Source of the DNA: Arthrobacter sp. NicSoilB8
GTDB lineage: Bacteria; Actinomycetota; Actinomycetes; Actinomycetales; Micrococcaceae
Assembly: GCF_019977355.1 (NCBI RefSeq)
Contig: NZ_AP024655.1
Location: 1,860,001 to 1,924,000 of the forward strand
Direction of reading: 5' to 3'
DNA: 64,000 nt
The position numbers were made by a program, and so were the translations under genes. This document shows, piece by piece, positions 9,387 through 64,000 of the stretch. The notes beneath the pieces were generated by a model. The model did not search any database, was not told where the DNA came from, and saw only the letters and a list, made by a program, of their open reading frames with translations. The stretch's first letter is position 1; every line of letters starts with the position of its first letter.

Positions 9387-10987
9387 CGGCGGCCACCAGG
9401 ACGGCGCTGCGGGTCCGGATCGACGCGTTCACGTTCCACGGCGAGAGCCGCCCGGCCCTGCACGATGCGGCGCTGTCAGTCACGCCCGGCTCCCTGACCG
9501 CCGTCCTGGGCGGCTCCGGAAGCGGAAAATCCACGCTCGGACGACTGCTGGCCGGCTGGCTCCGGGCCGGCCACGCGGGACAGTTCCGCGGCAGCCTGGA
9601 GCTCGACGGCACCCGGCTGGATTTCCGCGGCGTGCCCGAGGACCCCCGGATCAACCCCGCCGAATGGTCCCGCCGCGTGGCCTTCGTCCCGCAGGACGCG
9701 GCCGCAATGCTCTCCACGGTCCGGGCCACCGTGGCCGAGGAGCTGGCCTTCGGCCTGGAAAACCGGGCGACGCCACGGGTGGACATGCTCCGCGCTGTGG
9801 AGCGCACCGCCGCACGGACCGGCTTGGCCGGGCTGCTGGGCCGGGACCCGGCCACGCTCTCCGGCGGAGAGCTGCGCAGGCTCGCCGTGGGCTGCGCCGT
9901 CATCGCAGAACCGGGGGTCCTCATCCTCGACGAGCCGCTGGCATCGCTGGACGCGGCCGGTGCAGCGCAGATTGAGGCCCTGGTCGGCAGCCTCTGCGCC
10001 GCCGGGACCGGCGTCGTCGTGCTGAGTCAGGCCGCGGACCGCCTCGCCGGCGAGGCCACGCACTGGACCGTGCTCGACGGCGGCACGGTCACCGCCGCGG
10101 GAACGCCCGCGCAGCTGGCCCGCTCGGCCGAGCTGGAGCGCTCCGGCGTGCTGGTGCCCGGCGTTCTCGGCACTGGCGGCGTTCCCGGCGCCGGTATTCG
10201 TGGCCCCGCAGCCGCCCCTGGGGCCGGCCCGATATACGGTGGACTTGTCGCCGCGCCCGGTCCAGGTGCGGCAGCACCCGGGAAGGCCGCCCTCGAACTG
10301 CGCGGGGTCGGCTTCGGCTACGGCAAGGATTCGCGGAGCCGGCGGGGAACCCCTTCACCGGCCCAGGTCCGGGCCCAGGCCCAAGTCCTGCGGGATGTGG
10401 ACCTCGCCGTACACCCCGGCGAGATTGTCGCCGTAACGGGCCCCAACGGCGCGGGCAAGTCGACGCTCCTGCGTCACTTCAATGGTCTTCTCCGGCCTTC
10501 GGCAGGGGACGTGCGGGTCTGCGGGCGGAGCATTGCCGGGGTGCCGGTCGGAACTGTCGCGGCCTCGGTGGGCCTGCTCTTCCAGCAGCCCAGGGACCAG
10601 CTGTTCGAACGGACCGTCCTGCGGGAAGCGGCGTTCGGACTCCGGCACCTCTGCGGGAAAGCCGAAGCCGAGGGCAGGGCCCGGGCGGCGCTGGCCGCCG
10701 TCGGGCTTTCCGCGGCTGCCGAGGCCGTCCACCCGGCCGAGCTGTCCGCCTCCCGGCAGCGCCTGCTCGCCCTGGCCACGGTCCTGGCCCGGGAACCAGT
10801 CGTGCTGGCCCTGGACGAGCCGACTGTCGGCCTGGACCGGCACGGGCTTGAGCGGCTCGTCGGAAACGTGGCCGCCGCGGCGTCGCGGGGCACGGCCGTC
10901 GTCATGGTCACCCACGACCTCGCCTACGCCCGGGCCACCGCGCACCGCATTCTCGAACTCGACGGCGGGAGCCTGCGGGAAGCCTGA
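9383..10987 (+). CDS. Fused ECF transporter ATPase, two ABC domains (EcfA-EcfA')
   Basis: A 534-residue protein with two nucleotide-binding domains in tandem. Domain 1 has Walker A GGSGSGKST, signature LSGGELRR and Walker B LILDEPLASLD. Domain 2 has Walker A GPNGAGKST, a divergent signature LSASRQRL and Walker B LALDEPTVGLD. A Gly/Pro/Ala-rich linker of roughly 50 residues joins them. The GTG start overlaps the T gene by four bases (GTGA), indicating translational coupling. In most ECF systems the two ATPases are separate genes. The protein powers import through the S and T subunits. Confidence 0.93.
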   Translation: MTAATRTALRVRIDAFTFHGESRPALHDAALSVTPGSLTAVLGGSGSGKSTLGRLLAGWLRAGHAGQFRGSLELDGTRLDFRGVPEDPRINPAEWSRRVAFVPQDAAAMLSTVRATVAEELAFGLENRATPRVDMLRAVERTAARTGLAGLLGRDPATLSGGELRRLAVGCAVIAEPGVLILDEPLASLDAAGAAQIEALVGSLCAAGTGVVVLSQAADRLAGEATHWTVLDGGTVTAAGTPAQLARSAELERSGVLVPGVLGTGGVPGAGIRGPAAAPGAGPIYGGLVAAPGPGAAAPGKAALELRGVGFGYGKDSRSRRGTPSPAQVRAQAQVLRDVDLAVHPGEIVAVTGPNGAGKSTLLRHFNGLLRPSAGDVRVCGRSIAGVPVGTVAASVGLLFQQPRDQLFERTVLREAAFGLRHLCGKAEAEGRARAALAAVGLSAAAEAVHPAELSASRQRLLALATVLAREPVVLALDEPTVGLDRHGLERLVGNVAAAASRGTAVVMVTHDLAYARATAHRILELDGGSLREA

Positions 10988-11046
10988 CAGGCACGGGAGG
11001 CTTGTGACCCTACCGGGCTACGCGCCGGGTACCCGAGCATGGAGCC

Positions 11047-12036
11047 ATGGCCACTAATGCAGACACCGCCGCGATCACCGACGTTCCGGCCGTTGTGACG
11101 ATTTCGTCAGTGATCTGGCTGCTGCTCGGGGCAGCCGGCGCCGTCCAGTCCCTCATGGGGCTGCTCATGGTCCTGGCTTTCGGCGGGATGGTGCCGCCGG
11201 CGACGTACCTGCCGGCTCTGGCGCTCTACGTCACCGGCGGGGCCATATCGGTGACGGGGATTGTGTTCGCCGTGCTCCTGAGAAGGGGCCGGAAACCGGC
11301 GCGCATTGTCCTGTCGGCGTATGTGGTGATACTTCCGGCATTCCTCTATTTCCCGTACTTTGCCGGCGGTCTGTCTGCCGGCGAGGTGCCGTGGCGGGAG
11401 GCGCTGCTCTCTCCCGCCGGCGCGGCCGTTGCCGCTGCGGTCCTCGCCACAGCGCTCATGTGGCTGCCGCCTGCCAACGCGTATTTTGGCAGCGGCGGTG
11501 CGCACACATTGGATACACCAGCCGGTTCGGAGCCCACACCCGGCCGGGTGCCACGAGCGGTGGTGGCATCGGTCTGGATCCTGGTTGTTGCCGGCGCTGT
11601 TGCCGGGCTGCAGGCAGTCATGGGTCTGGTCCTCCTTGCGGGAAGTATGGGTTCGGGCGGAAACACGACTCCGGCGCTGGTCCTGTGGCTGACTCTTGCC
11701 GCAGTGGCGGCTGCAGACCTCGCTTGCGCCAGGGCAGTCGGGCGGGGAAAGCGATTCGTCCGGCCCGTCGTGACCGTCATCCCGCTGGCGGGACTCGCCC
11801 TCGCAGTGTTGGCCACGCTCGCCGGCTTTGCGTCAGTGTCTTCGGCGAATCCGGAGAATCCGGCGTATCCGGAGAATCCGGCGGCTGCGGGCGGCGTGCA
11901 GTCGGCGATCTTCCTGACGGTCTTTTCCCAGGGGCTGCCGCTCATCGGAGGCCTGGTCGCAGCAGTACTGGTCTGGCTGCCCTCTGCAGGGCGCTACTTC
12001 CGCCGCAGCGCGGTGGTTGGTCCGGCCGGCACTTGA
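11047..12036 (+). CDS. Hypothetical membrane protein with internal duplication
   Basis: A 329-residue protein with about eight membrane segments in two similar halves of four. The first half opens with VIWLLLGAAGAVQSLMGLL and ends with LMWLPPANAYF; the second opens with WILVVAGAVAGLQAVMGLV and ends with LVWLPSAGRYF. This pattern suggests an ancient duplication of a four-helix unit. A loop in the second half holds the repeat NPENPAYPENPA. No catalytic motif or known family is recognised. It is probably a separate unit from the ECF genes, which end 59 bases before it, and a strong terminator follows. Confidence 0.8.
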   Translation: MATNADTAAITDVPAVVTISSVIWLLLGAAGAVQSLMGLLMVLAFGGMVPPATYLPALALYVTGGAISVTGIVFAVLLRRGRKPARIVLSAYVVILPAFLYFPYFAGGLSAGEVPWREALLSPAGAAVAAAVLATALMWLPPANAYFGSGGAHTLDTPAGSEPTPGRVPRAVVASVWILVVAGAVAGLQAVMGLVLLAGSMGSGGNTTPALVLWLTLAAVAAADLACARAVGRGKRFVRPVVTVIPLAGLALAVLATLAGFASVSSANPENPAYPENPAAAGGVQSAIFLTVFSQGLPLIGGLVAAVLVWLPSAGRYFRRSAVVGPAGT

Positions 12037-58584: not shown

Positions 58585-58666
58585 GCCCGAGTGGCGGAAT
58601 TGGCAGACGCGCCGCACTCAAAATGCGGTATCGAAAGGTGTGTGGGTTCGAGTCCCACCTCGGGCA
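58585..58666 (+). tRNA. tRNA-Leu(CAA)
   Basis: An 82-base tRNA with a long variable arm. The acceptor is GCCCGAG/CTCGGGC, anticodon stem CCGCA/TGCGG with loop CTCAAAA (CAA), T-arm GTGGGTTCGAGTCCCAC. CCA is not encoded. TACACT at 58567-58572 is a possible -10. The integrase gene begins 87 bases downstream, so the 3' half is the probable attachment site. Confidence 0.95.
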
Positions 58667-58753
58667 CAGTGTTTCCGCAGGTCAGAGGCCTGTTTTATCT
58701 TTGGGTGTTGACAAAACAGCCCAAAGTGTTGACAGCGGCGTACCGTTTTTTGT

Positions 58754-59884
58754 GTGGCCAGCATTCGAAAACGCATCAAAAAGGACGGAACAGCGTCCTA
58801 CATGGTGTTGTGGCGGGACCCGAAGAGCCGCGAGCAGCAGGGTCTGACGGTCGCCACTCTCGTCGAAGCTGAAACCCTGAAGAGGCTTCTGGACGCCAAC
58901 GGGCAATCCTTCGAGATTGCGCAGTACGCCATCCTCTCCAACGCCAAACGCACACCCACCATCGCTGACGTCATCCAAGAGCACATTGATCTGTTGGTTC
59001 GGCCATCGAGTGGAACCATCAAGACGTACCAAACCATGTTGGACCTGCATATCCGGAACGTCATCGGCCATGTTCCGGCGGACAAGCTCGACTACCGTCT
59101 GCTCGCGCATTGGGTGAAATCGATGATGGCAAAGGGGCTTGCGCCGAAGACAGTCCATAACGTTCATGGCCTCATTTCCGCCGCAATGAACACCGCAGAG
59201 ATGCTGGGCTACATTCCGCGGAACCCTTGCCGGGGCGTGCAGCTGCCGCCCATTGAAAAGGCTGAGGACGAGGCTATGTTCCTCACCCATGCTGAGTTCA
59301 GCCTCATCATGGAGGGGATGGGTGAGCGCTACAAGGCCTTCACGAATTTCCTAGTAATGACCGGCACTCGCTTTGGAGAGGCCACCGCGCTGACTGTGGC
59401 GGACGTGGACCTCCTGTCCAAGCCTCCGACCGCGCGGATCAACAAGGCTTGGAAGCGAGACGGTAAGTCGAAGTTTTACGTTGGTGCAACGAAGACCGGT
59501 GCCGGTAAGCGCACAATTGGGCTCAACCCGGCGCTCGTGGAGCTGCTGATCCCGCTGGTGGCGAGCCGGCCGGGGAAAGAACTTGTGTTCACTACTCCCA
59601 AGGGCGGGCGAATCATTCACAAGCTCTACTGGCACCACTACTGGGTTCCTGCCGTTCACACGGCCCAGGCTATCGGCCTTACCAAAAACCCACGGATCCA
59701 TGACCTTCGCCACACTCACGCATCCTGGCTGATCCAGGACGGCGTGCCCTTGTTCACCATCTCGCGCCGGCTGGGGCACGCCTCTACGCGGACTACCGAG
59801 CAGGTCTACGGGCACTTGATGCCCGAGGCGCTGCAAGCCGGTGCTGACGCTACTGAGCGCTCTGTGACAGCCTTTCTGCGGTGA
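58754..59884 (+). CDS. Tyrosine recombinase (phage-type integrase)
   Basis: A 376-residue site-specific recombinase. An arm-type/SAM-like N-terminal region (residues about 1-150) precedes the catalytic domain. Catalytic residues are visible: first arginine in TGTRFGEATAL, the HDLRHTHASW box with histidine and second arginine, LGHAST and the nucleophile tyrosine in EQVYGHLMPEA. The GTG start is 87 bases after tRNA-Leu. Two GTGTTGACA direct repeats lie between them (58706 and 58727) and could be promoter or arm-binding sites. It is probably responsible for insertion at the tRNA. Confidence 0.94.
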   Translation: MASIRKRIKKDGTASYMVLWRDPKSREQQGLTVATLVEAETLKRLLDANGQSFEIAQYAILSNAKRTPTIADVIQEHIDLLVRPSSGTIKTYQTMLDLHIRNVIGHVPADKLDYRLLAHWVKSMMAKGLAPKTVHNVHGLISAAMNTAEMLGYIPRNPCRGVQLPPIEKAEDEAMFLTHAEFSLIMEGMGERYKAFTNFLVMTGTRFGEATALTVADVDLLSKPPTARINKAWKRDGKSKFYVGATKTGAGKRTIGLNPALVELLIPLVASRPGKELVFTTPKGGRIIHKLYWHHYWVPAVHTAQAIGLTKNPRIHDLRHTHASWLIQDGVPLFTISRRLGHASTRTTEQVYGHLMPEALQAGADATERSVTAFLR

Positions 59885-60019: not shown

Positions 60020-60292
60020 GTGGAGATCGAATTTTTTGAGCCGGCTGAAGCTGCCGCGCTGATGCGCTGCACAGAGTCGTGGCTGCGCGACGGCGCTACC
60101 AGCGGACGATTCCCCCACGCGTGCTGGGGCAAGGGCAAGATCATTTTCACTTCCGAGCACATACTGGAAATCGCGAAGTTGAGTGAGATCCTTCCCGGTA
60201 GCAGTGGTCCTTCCGTTTCCGTCAGTCGGCCGGCCGCAAAGGATCGGCTCATTGGTACCCGCTCGAAAGTCAGACTGGCTACGGCGAACTGA
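60020..60292 (+). CDS. Excisionase-like small HTH protein
   Basis: A 90-residue protein. EFFEPAEAAALMRCTESWLRDG followed by GRFPHACWGKGKIIFTSEHI has the layout of a winged-helix MerR/excisionase domain that recognises DNA with an initial PAEAA turn. The C-terminal 30 residues are basic. The GTG start follows a TTGGAG site. It is located after the integrase, as recombination directionality factors often are. A transcriptional regulator role is equally possible. Confidence 0.72.
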   Translation: MEIEFFEPAEAAALMRCTESWLRDGATSGRFPHACWGKGKIIFTSEHILEIAKLSEILPGSSGPSVSVSRPAAKDRLIGTRSKVRLATAN

Positions 60293-60533: not shown

Positions 60534-60903
60534 GAGAAGTATCTTGCCTCATGTGACGACTCGAAGGGCTCAGCGTGACCACGGAGACGTAGGCGCGGGT
60601 TGGCTGGAGCTGACCTGTCACGGCGACCATGAGAGCAAATCCAGCGCTTCCCAAATTTGCTAGGACAATAACGACGTGGGCGTCGGATATAGAACCCGTG
60701 TCGTTTGCGTCCTGCGACGGCCGCATAGGGAAGTCTTGGATGGTTCTGAGTGTCCACAATCCGGCGAGGTGCTCATGCGTTCTCGCCGCCATGATCGGAG
60801 AGGCCGATGGCAACTCACCCCATCGACAGGAAATACCGCCTGACAAAGCACCGCATCGCTGTTTTTGCTGAGCTGGCCGCTCTCCCGATGGCAGGCGGAG
60901 TGC
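60534..60903. other. Gene-free gap upstream of the OLD nuclease
   Basis: No ORF here resembles a protein. The stretch must contain the promoter of the two-gene nuclease-helicase cassette. No clear repeats, hairpins or tRNA-like structures were seen. Confidence 0.5.
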
Positions 60904-63240
60904 ATGCGGATTGAATGTGTGGAAATCCAGAATTTCCGTAAACTTGCTGCTGTCCGCATCGACTTCGCCGAGAACAGCACACTCTTGGTCGGGGCAAACA
61001 ACAGCGGAAAGACAACGGCGCTGGTCGCTCTCCGCCACTTCCTCGTTGACGGTGCTGGGGCATTCCGAGCTACGGACATCACACTGTCCAAATGGTCAGA
61101 GATCAATGCCATTGGGGAGGAATGGCTGGCGAAAGGGTCAGGCCCGCTGGAAGCCAGTGCGGACGTTTGGCGAACAGTTCTCCCATCGTTGGACGTTTGG
61201 TTGAGGGTTGAGAACCACGAAATTCACCAAGTCAGCGCGTTACTTCCGACTCTCGATTGGTCTGGCGGCCTGCTCGGCGTCCGGATTGCGCTTGAACCGA
61301 CAGACGTCGAAGCCTTGTACGGGGACTTCCGCGCTGCTTGGGAACGTAGCAGGGAGTTGCTCAATGCGGCGAGCCAGGGATCAGGTCTCGACGGTGCTAG
61401 CGAGGGCAACACCGGGCTAGTGGAGAACGCTGGAGCGACTACGACAAGTTTTACCTTGTGGCCCGAAAGCCTTCTTGACTACCTGTCGAGGGGTGGAGGA
61501 CAGAATTTTGTTCTCCGCCACTACGTTCTGGATCCGTCTAGGTTGGAACCAGCAACGCGGGACCTCGCGGCGCCACAGCTCCTTCCTCACAACGCCGCAC
61601 CGCTCATTGGTGATCCTCTCCGACATCTCATCCGTATCGACGAGATCAATGCGCAGCGTGGCCTCGGAGAAGTCAGTTCGCCAAGTTCCAGTCACGCGAA
61701 GTCGGCAACTGCGGAGGGAGCGAAGCTCTCAAGGCAGCTCAGCGATTACTACGTTCGGCACCTCAGCCCGTCCGAACATCCGGACGTGAGTGACATCCAC
61801 GCCTTGGACACGATTTCGATTGCCCAAAGAGAGTTCGACAAACGCCTGGCCGAGGCATTCAAGCAGGCGATAACAGAAATGGAGGGGCTGGGCTATCCCG
61901 GCGTCAGCGATCCACGGATTCGGATTGCCAGCAAGCTCAGCGCCACCGATAGTCTCAACCACGATTCCGCCGTCTCGTTTCTTGTTGACGTTGCCGGCGT
62001 AGATAGTGAACCGGGTCCTCAACTCCACCTGCCAGAAAGCCACAACGGACTCGGATACCAAAACCTAATCTCGATGGTTTTTAGGCTGATGAGCTTCAGA
62101 GATGCGTGGATGCGCGTCGGAAAGGCTGGGCGCACTCGAACGGACGTACACATCGAGCCCCTGCACCTTGTTCTCATCGAGGAGCCCGAGGCTCACCTGC
62201 ACGTGCAGGTTCAACAAGTCTTTGCGAAGAAGGCCTTCGACGTCCTTCGTAATCATCCGGACTTGAAAGAGAAGACCCAATTAACGACGCAGCTGGTGGT
62301 AAGCACGCACTCCAGTCACGTGTCGCATGAACTGCCATTTTCAAGTCTTCGATACTTTCGCCGACTCCCTGCAGGAAGCCAATCAAGCGTTCCAACTTCG
62401 GCTGTCATCAGTCTCAAGGACGTGTTCGGAGCAGAGGATAAGACCGAACACTTCGTGACGCGGTACCTACGTGCCCACCATGCTGATCTATTTTTCGCCG
62501 ATGCCGTGATTCTCGTCGAGGGACCCGCGGAGCGGATGTTACTTCCAAATTTTATTCGGAATTCTCACGCATTCCTTAACAGCGCCTACATCACTATTCT
62601 GGAGATCGGCGGCAGTCACGCGCACCGGCTGAAACCTCTTATTGAGGCCCTCCAGATACCAACGCTCGTCGTAACCGACATCGATGCACTGAAGGAGGGC
62701 AAGGGCGTTCCGGTCAAGCGTGGTCAGGGCCAAGAGACGGGCAACCCAACGCTCAAGGACTGGGCGCCAGTTGGAAAAGCGATCGATGACCTTCTAGATG
62801 CCGCAGATGACATGAAGAGCATCGAAGGTGACGAACTTTTCGCGGTGCGATTCGCGTACCAGACACCTGTAAAGGTGGCGATTCCCAGTGACGCCCCCTC
62901 GGAGGAGGCGTTGCCCTCTACGTTCGAAGATTCCTTGGCGTTCGAAAACGTCCAGTTCTTTTCGGAGCTACCCGGTGTCGGCCTGACGAAGAAGTTCAGA
63001 GTCGCCCTCAGCGAAGGCCAGAACCCTGATGCCGTCGCTGAAGCGCTGTTTACCAGTCTGAAGTCTGGGAAAAAAGCTGAGTTCGCCCTGGACATCATTA
63101 GTGACATCGGCTTCAAGGACATCCAGGTGCCTGGGTATATCAGTGCTGGCCTTTACTGGCTCGAAGCGAGGCTTCGAAAGCAGGCGCAGGCTGTAGGGGA
63201 AATAGTTGTCCCTTCTGCGGAAGATCATGTTGATGGCTGA
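60904..63240 (+). CDS. OLD-family ATP-dependent endonuclease (GajA-like, long form)
   Basis: A 778-residue protein. An SMC/ABC-type ATPase forms most of the N-terminus: Walker A GANNSGKT at residues 30-37, signature-like GLGYQNLISMVF, Walker B LVLIEEPEAHLH at about 422-433 and switch VVSTHSSHVSHEL. The TOPRIM nuclease follows, with ILVEGPAER (Glu539, Glu543) and VVTDIDAL (Asp592, Asp594). GajA of the Gabija system is about 580 residues, so this protein has longer insertions and a C-terminal extension. The ATG at 60904 is preceded by GGCGGAG; an upstream in-frame start is less likely. It overlaps the helicase gene. Confidence 0.88.
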   Translation: MRIECVEIQNFRKLAAVRIDFAENSTLLVGANNSGKTTALVALRHFLVDGAGAFRATDITLSKWSEINAIGEEWLAKGSGPLEASADVWRTVLPSLDVWLRVENHEIHQVSALLPTLDWSGGLLGVRIALEPTDVEALYGDFRAAWERSRELLNAASQGSGLDGASEGNTGLVENAGATTTSFTLWPESLLDYLSRGGGQNFVLRHYVLDPSRLEPATRDLAAPQLLPHNAAPLIGDPLRHLIRIDEINAQRGLGEVSSPSSSHAKSATAEGAKLSRQLSDYYVRHLSPSEHPDVSDIHALDTISIAQREFDKRLAEAFKQAITEMEGLGYPGVSDPRIRIASKLSATDSLNHDSAVSFLVDVAGVDSEPGPQLHLPESHNGLGYQNLISMVFRLMSFRDAWMRVGKAGRTRTDVHIEPLHLVLIEEPEAHLHVQVQQVFAKKAFDVLRNHPDLKEKTQLTTQLVVSTHSSHVSHELPFSSLRYFRRLPAGSQSSVPTSAVISLKDVFGAEDKTEHFVTRYLRAHHADLFFADAVILVEGPAERMLLPNFIRNSHAFLNSAYITILEIGGSHAHRLKPLIEALQIPTLVVTDIDALKEGKGVPVKRGQGQETGNPTLKDWAPVGKAIDDLLDAADDMKSIEGDELFAVRFAYQTPVKVAIPSDAPSEEALPSTFEDSLAFENVQFFSELPGVGLTKKFRVALSEGQNPDAVAEALFTSLKSGKKAEFALDIISDIGFKDIQVPGYISAGLYWLEARLRKQAQAVGEIVVPSAEDHVDG

Positions 63241-64000
63241 GCGCCTCGTTGCCGGTCCTGAAACGGACAACTTGGTCGACGCATCGATAGCCGAGTGCCT
63301 GAGTTTGGAGAGCCCGCGATCATTCTTCTTGTACGCGGGAGCAGGCTCGGGCAAGACTCGGTCCTTGGTGAATGCGGTGGAGCGCCTGCTCGTGGAGTCG
63401 AAGCGAGCACTCGGGATTCGCGGGCAATCGATAGCTGTCATTACCTATACGAATGCGGCCGCCGACGAGATCAAACGTCGGCTGGAGTTCGACCCAACTG
63501 TCGAAGTCGCCACAATTCATTCATACGCGTGGCGACTGATCGGCGAGTTTCAGGTAGATATTCGCGAGTGGCTTCGCGCGGACATCACGAGGGACCTAAC
63601 CGTACTTCATTCCAAGTCTAGTAGGGCCGGGACGAAGGCAGAGACGGACCGACTATACAAGATCGCGAGAGGCGAGGGCCGACTTGCATCGCTGGATGCA
63701 GTCGATCGATTCGTATACAGCCCCTCAGGGGATAGTCGCGGTCGAGGGGCGCTTAACCACACCGAAGTCATCGCCATGGCTGCAGATTTCCTGTCGCACA
63801 AGCCTGTCTTGCAGGCCATCGTCGTTGGTCGGCATCCGTTTATCTTCATTGATGAAAGCCAGGACACTAATAAGGTCTTTCTTGAGGCGTTGTTATCGGT
63901 GGAACGTGCTCATTCGGAGAAGTTCGGCTTGGGGCTTTTCGGGGACACTATGCAGCGGATCTACAACGACGGCATGGAGAATCTGGAGGATGTGATCCCC
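63233..64000 (+). CDS. UvrD-like helicase (GajB-like), 3'-truncated by window edge
   Basis: An open frame of 256 codons to the last base, no stop. The N-terminus SPRSFFLYAGAGSGKTRSL holds motif I (GAGSGKT, residues 36-42). Motif Ia is ITYTNAAADEIKRRL, the HSYAWRLIGEF block follows, motif II is FIFIDESQDT and motif III is LFGDTMQRIY, all of superfamily 1A. The ATG at 63233 overlaps the nuclease stop and has GGAAG 9 bases upstream; ATG at 63227 is the alternative. Pairing with an OLD nuclease defines Gabija-type systems. Confidence 0.87.
   Translation, partial: MAERLVAGPETDNLVDASIAECLSLESPRSFFLYAGAGSGKTRSLVNAVERLLVESKRALGIRGQSIAVITYTNAAADEIKRRLEFDPTVEVATIHSYAWRLIGEFQVDIREWLRADITRDLTVLHSKSSRAGTKAETDRLYKIARGEGRLASLDAVDRFVYSPSGDSRGRGALNHTEVIAMAADFLSHKPVLQAIVVGRHPFIFIDESQDTNKVFLEALLSVERAHSEKFGLGLFGDTMQRIYNDGMENLEDVIP

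Follow-up and report, generated by a model that had tools for sequence, protein, structure and literature searches.

Gabija couples the nuclease GajA to the helicase GajB and is present in over 15% of the prokaryotic genomes sequenced (PMC10781630). The nuclease of the GajA-GajB complex is described as restrained by ATP and released upon infection (PMC10568477, PMC12796447), and the GajA of Bacillus cereus VD045 as a protein of 578 residues (PMC10822852). The phylogeny of OLD proteins given in one of these sources nests class 2 within class 1 and includes clades listed there as uncharacterised (PMC12796447). Here we characterize a gajA-gajB pair that begins at position 60904 of a 64,000-nucleotide stretch of the genome of Arthrobacter sp. 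NicSoilB8 (contig NZ_AP024655.1, positions 1,860,001 to 1,924,000; hereafter the window). Judged by gene content, gene order, conserved active sites and predicted fold, the pair very probably constitutes a complete Gabija system, belongs to a common long branch and is cargo on an integrative element, probably of conjugative type, at a tRNA-Leu gene.

The gajA gene (60904..63240, + strand) encodes an OLD-type ABC ATPase-TOPRIM nuclease of 778 amino acids from ATG 60904; an alternative TTG start upstream, at 60865, would give 791. Its best PADLOC family is GajA PDLC00093 (897.2 bits, residues 1-764 on profile positions 1-729 of 736), followed by PDLC00095 (877.1 bits, profile positions 1-742 of 752). 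Altogether 91 families match, and the 25 listed consist of 24 GajA families and one AriA family. A bare match to a GajA profile carries little weight, because such matches also occur in 10 of 14 control genomes, but a full-length match of 897 bits is a different matter; the sole further GajA-profile match in the NicSoilB8 genome scores 24.3 bits. Pfam places the ATPase domains PF13175 (AAA_15, above its cut-off) and PF13476 (AAA_23) in the protein, together with the OLD-like TOPRIM domain PF20469 (71.7 bits against a cut-off of 23.2).

The 5' part of gajB lies in the window (63206..64000, + strand) and runs off its end. Extension past 64 kb, as proposed in the preliminary description of this region, completes the gene (G000:C1 1923206-1925140, ending at window position 65140), which encodes a UvrD-like superfamily 1 (SF1) helicase of 644 amino acids from TTG 63206. 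That start overlaps gajA by 35 bases; ATG 63227 and ATG 63233 overlap it by 14 and 8 bases and yield 637 and 635 amino acids, and one of these two is the likelier start because the GajB reading frames of relatives measure 624-641 amino acids in 28 of 41 cases. The whole protein matches PADLOC family PDLC00111 best, at 747.7 bits (residues 19-643 on positions 7-623 of 625), the part encoded in the window alone reaching 333.8 bits, and Pfam identifies the UvrD-helicase domain PF00580 (73.7 bits, cut-off 23). GajB carries FFLYAGAGSGKT, which had been placed at the start of the helicase; it is present, some 40 residues in from the N terminus rather than at the very beginning. We take GAGSGKT, TYTNAA, DESQD, LFGDTMQR, NHRSS, THQGVKGLEF and TCSRAEE to be helicase motifs, and most of their letters are invariant in an alignment of 22 sequences (this GajB plus 21 drawn from the 43 gajB-bearing loci); the Walker lysine of GajB is K50 when counted in the 644-residue form. 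The open reading frames and Pfam domains thus bear out the initial reading of two overlapping genes for an ATPase-TOPRIM nuclease and an SF1 helicase, and its assignment of the pair to Gabija and class 2 OLD is backed by both profiles, the gene order, the active-site residues and the fold.

The Walker A, H-loop and TOPRIM metal residues of GajA are retained, in line with the earlier remark that its catalytic residues appear intact. In an alignment of 44 sequences, comprising the protein itself, 29 homologues taken from the other 119 listed, and sequences from 14 of 45 related loci, the residues K36, G384, H469, E539, E543, G570, D592, D594, T673, E675 and K724 show no variation, while E426 and E427 occur in 43 sequences apiece. 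The 43 relatives are 46-62% identical to this GajA and were all found by similarity to it, so that the invariance holds for its own branch. K36 is the Walker A lysine, H469 belongs to the H-loop, and E539, E543, D592 and D594 form the first half of the TOPRIM metal site; these four align with E379, E383, D432 and D434 of B. cereus GajA, which are described as its conserved metal site (PMC10822852, PMC10781630). T673, E675 and K724 probably supply the rest of the site, by presumed equivalence with D511, D513 and K541 in B. cereus and T506, E508 and K562 in Burkholderia pseudomallei, although in the alignment to the B. pseudomallei structure 6nk8 the second stretch scores just 2.2 bits. In sequence, this GajA is distant from that of B. 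cereus (33 bits with phmmer); the predicted structure of the 778-residue protein superposes on the solved B. cereus GajA over residues 1-759, at 17% identity in the structural alignment.

The two genes are linked. Among 45 related loci, assigned by their record titles to proteobacteria, actinobacteria, planctomycetes, cyanobacteria, acidobacteria and Fibrobacteres, gajB lies 3' of gajA in 43; in the remaining two (L044 and L045) the contig ends inside gajA or about 70 bases past its expected end. The matched segments of the two genes are 11-141 bases apart in 42 loci and 867 bases apart in L042, whose gajA match is interrupted; a contig end cuts gajB in L036, and L043 has a partial gajA match only. 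Lengths were taken from reading frames of at least 600 amino acids for gajA (41 of 45 loci) and at least 550 for gajB (41 loci), and both were available in 39 loci. Across these 39, the pairwise identities of the two proteins correlate closely (Spearman 0.91; Mantel r 0.97, with none of 2,000 permutations as high), which partly reflects the shared ancestry of the loci.

The nuclease had been described as enlarged by about 200 residues and as a possible divergent subtype. The first figure is accurate with respect to B. cereus GajA, which is 200 residues shorter. About 160 of the extra residues lie between the Walker A lysine and the TOPRIM glutamate (503 residues from K36 to E539 here, 344 in B. 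cereus if, as we assume, its Walker A lysine is K35), and about 40 follow the glutamate (239 residues after E539, compared with 199). The protein is not atypical, however, since its closest relatives are equally long. Of 8,000 candidates scored, 5,675 passed an E-value of 1e-3, and the best 120, this protein included, have 727-822 amino acids (median 771.5); actinobacterial names among the best matches listed include Arthrobacter, Nesterenkonia, Leifsonia and Subtercola. The gajA reading frames of the 41 related loci extend over 719-847 amino acids by the longest start, and the PADLOC profiles of 736 and 752 positions fit the protein over its full length. A GajA of 778 residues is therefore not unusual but the normal size of its branch, which is already represented in detection profiles; it seemed oversized because it was compared with the short, solved B. 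cereus form. When solved structures are searched with the sequence, the GajA chains found represent that one short protein in five versions, with chain lengths of 575-675; the longest, judging from its alignment, is extended at the N terminus by about 97 residues.

A special case of the Gabija assignment, which we consider unlikely, is that the additional residues of the ATPase insert and C terminus give this long form an assembly or a trigger unlike that of B. cereus. The extra length is conserved as such: 37 of the 318 positions of residues 58-375, between Walker A and the signature, are invariant in the 44 sequences, and helices predicted at residues 271-287, 295-318 and 320-327 could sit where a dimerisation insert would be expected. 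Yet this stretch is less conserved than the core regions (13 of 57 and 23 of 105 positions invariant), part of the extra length is predicted with low confidence, and GajA size varies widely in general, 10 of the 24 PADLOC GajA profiles listed having at least 650 positions. Moreover, an ATPase-domain dimerisation insert is already reported for B. cereus GajA and Thermus scotoductus OLD (PMC10781630). We likewise doubt that the long branch as a whole (GajA of about 770 and GajB of about 635 amino acids) is a mechanistically distinct subtype, with another oligomer or activating signal; such a subtype might escape Gad1, a phage inhibitor whose target in the B. cereus complex is the dimerisation domain of GajA (PMC10568477).

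It is far less probable that the genes are a housekeeping repair pair, a RecF-like ATPase and a UvrD/PcrA helicase that merely resemble Gabija. GajA does show weak similarity to RecF over residues 5-63, and the helicase is weakly similar to UvrD, PcrA, Rep, RecB and AddA, but this much is expected of ABC and SF1 proteins generally, and the NCBIfam models stay far below their cut-offs (RecF, 25.6 bits against 172; UvrD, PcrA and Rep, 28.3-55.6 against 911-1168; RecB and AddA, 17.7-48.9 against 650-1697). GajA also contains an OLD-like TOPRIM domain, which RecF is not known to have. The distribution is patchy as well: at an E-value of 1e-30, a search of 150 genomes of the genus found gajA in its own genome and in none of the other 149, and its own genome holds only the low-scoring second match mentioned above. 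On the low model scores and this patchy distribution we rejected the RecF-UvrD family, the non-defence alternative named in the preliminary description. Membership of a distinct OLD class with a helicase beside it by chance, either class 3 as in retron-Eco8 or AriA of PARIS, is just as improbable, because GajA scores 67.5 bits on the retron_eff_Eco8 NCBIfam model (cut-off 250) and 150.5 bits on the PADLOC AriA family as opposed to 897.2 on GajA, and its conserved partner is the GajB helicase.

With the Gabija assignment retained, we consider how the system is spread and what accompanies it. Matches were present in 132 of 72,556 plasmid records, 73 of them over at least 80% of the query and 76 of the 132 on plasmids predicted to be conjugative, and in 3 of 50,697 phage records, 2 of them over at least 80% of the query; all are less than 60% identical. 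A distant relative (24.9% identity) occurs in Pseudomonas phage PfAC02b (OR790969.1, 2177-4126), where the features are named ATP-dependent endonuclease and DNA helicase. The suggestion that further system genes might follow the pair found no support: when 681 reading frames of the 45 loci were clustered, gajA was present in 45 and gajB in 43, and every other cluster in at most 8, in a clustering that is coarse because many of the loci are short or come from related genomes. A three-gene Gabija-like cassette has been described in Xylella fastidiosa (PMC9148166); none of that type was seen in the same clustering. Thirteen further clusters occurred in at least 3 loci, and representatives of 11 different ones were scanned (10 with PADLOC and 10 with Pfam). 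PADLOC gave matches to subunits of type I restriction-modification systems for four of them, and such genes, called from one identified representative per cluster, lie within 10 kb of a long-form Gabija in 4 of 45 loci (L008, L011, L018 and L046), which lends modest support to a location of its relatives in defence islands.

In NicSoilB8 itself, the order of genes is tRNA-Leu, tyrosine integrase, small HTH protein and gajAB. The tRNA-Leu gene (anticodon caa; 58585..58667, + strand, by ARAGORN) is the probable integration site; it is followed by a tyrosine integrase of 376 amino acids (58754..59884, +; PF00589, 74.9 bits, cut-off 27.1) and, adjoining this, a 90-amino-acid HTH_17-like protein (60020..60292, +; PF12728, 20.4 bits, below the cut-off of 27) that is possibly an excisionase. 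The gajAB genes are thus cargo behind an integrase at tRNA-Leu. Beyond the window are encoded a TraG/VirD4-type coupling protein, an ArdC-type protein, SSB and a TrwC relaxase, which makes a conjugative-type integrative element the probable carrier. Of seven loci compared within the genus, two have an integrase of about 75% identity at this tRNA gene. A search with the tRNA site plus the gene upstream of it gave long matches in 59 of 61 genomes, that of NicSoilB8 included, and only weak ones in the other two (G027 and G048).

The last 21-22 bases of the tRNA gene (58646-58667) recur as att-like copies at G000:C1 2055845 and 2070535 (22 bases) and at 2109473 and 2169958 (21 bases), 137-251 kb downstream of the gene (span 1918646-2169999), which suggests an island of several stacked integrations. 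Two other matches were not counted, one upstream at 1293933 (28 bases, 96%) and one at 2464849 (19 bases). No 15-base direct repeat was found in the 39.6 kb of loci L002 and L003, and a repeat search of the att region over 119.6 kb returned one 12-base match, at 1920514. Same-genus genomes contain many short matches to the tRNA-Leu(caa) end.

Two other parts of the island deserve mention. The genes 3' of gajB, starting 460 bases on (L002:7202-11250), may serve the element as a control module; they include a small protein in which a HELGH motif was noted by eye, and a membrane protein resembling MAB_1171c (90.1 bits, below the cut-off of 100). The proteins at L002:8669-9157 and 10741-11250 look alike by eye and have no match in Pfam, PADLOC or NCBIfam. 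Farther on, the same island encodes a YobI-type P-loop NTPase of 1239 amino acids (L002:15026-18745, - strand; G000:C1 1933425-1937144; 344.5 bits), which matches the PADLOC Tmn defence family partially (143.2 bits, in three stretches).

For assembly, trigger, cutting and protection, we draw on the Gabija systems of B. cereus and Pseudomonas aeruginosa. By analogy with them, GajA would multimerise by way of the insert in its ATPase domain and GajB would dock onto it, in the 4:4 assembly expected of Gabija; as long as the ATPase domain has ATP bound, the TOPRIM nuclease would stay inactive. Phage DNA, with free ends unprotected by the end-processing enzyme of the host, or nucleotide depletion might then trigger the system, whereupon the GajB helicase would assist GajA in nicking or cutting DNA; protection would be expected to require both genes. 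Two views of the trigger have been put forward, one in which nucleotides are sensed (PMC8136825) and one in which the signal is a DNA end that RecBCD has left free (PMC12407980). The present data favour neither. AdnAB often replaces RecBCD in actinobacteria, and the view based on free DNA ends would predict a link between Gabija and AdnAB in an actinobacterial host. As a discovery, the locus is of small value, since Gabija is common and the long branch is already in detection profiles. If the branch did work unlike the B. cereus model, this would be worth testing, because the solved GajA chains that its sequence retrieves represent one short protein. A long-GajA subtype is not named in the titles and abstract openings covered, which concerned Gabija subtypes, GajA phylogeny and length, Gabija in Arthrobacter, and Gabija in connection with integrative and conjugative elements and actinobacteria, and mostly excluded subscription papers.

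Among known systems, the retron-Eco8 effector (class 3 OLD) differs from the present nuclease, which scores below the NCBIfam cut-off for that effector and has a helicase as its partner. For the class 2 OLD proteins of B. pseudomallei and Xanthomonas campestris (6nk8, 6njv), the solved part is the C-terminal TOPRIM domain, in a structure without a helicase partner. The Gabija system of B. cereus VD045 (GajA, 578 amino acids; GajB, 494 amino acids) has the same ATPase-TOPRIM order, equivalent metal-site residues, the same fold and an adjacent SF1 helicase; the proteins here are longer, GajB by about 150 residues, and little of the sequence is shared. The closest counterparts are the PADLOC Gabija families PDLC00093 and PDLC00095 for GajA and PDLC00111 and PDLC00143 for GajB, which the NicSoilB8 pair resembles in near-full-length matches, gene order and gene overlap, with 778 and 644 amino acids against profiles of 736-752 and 625-632 positions and no notable difference.
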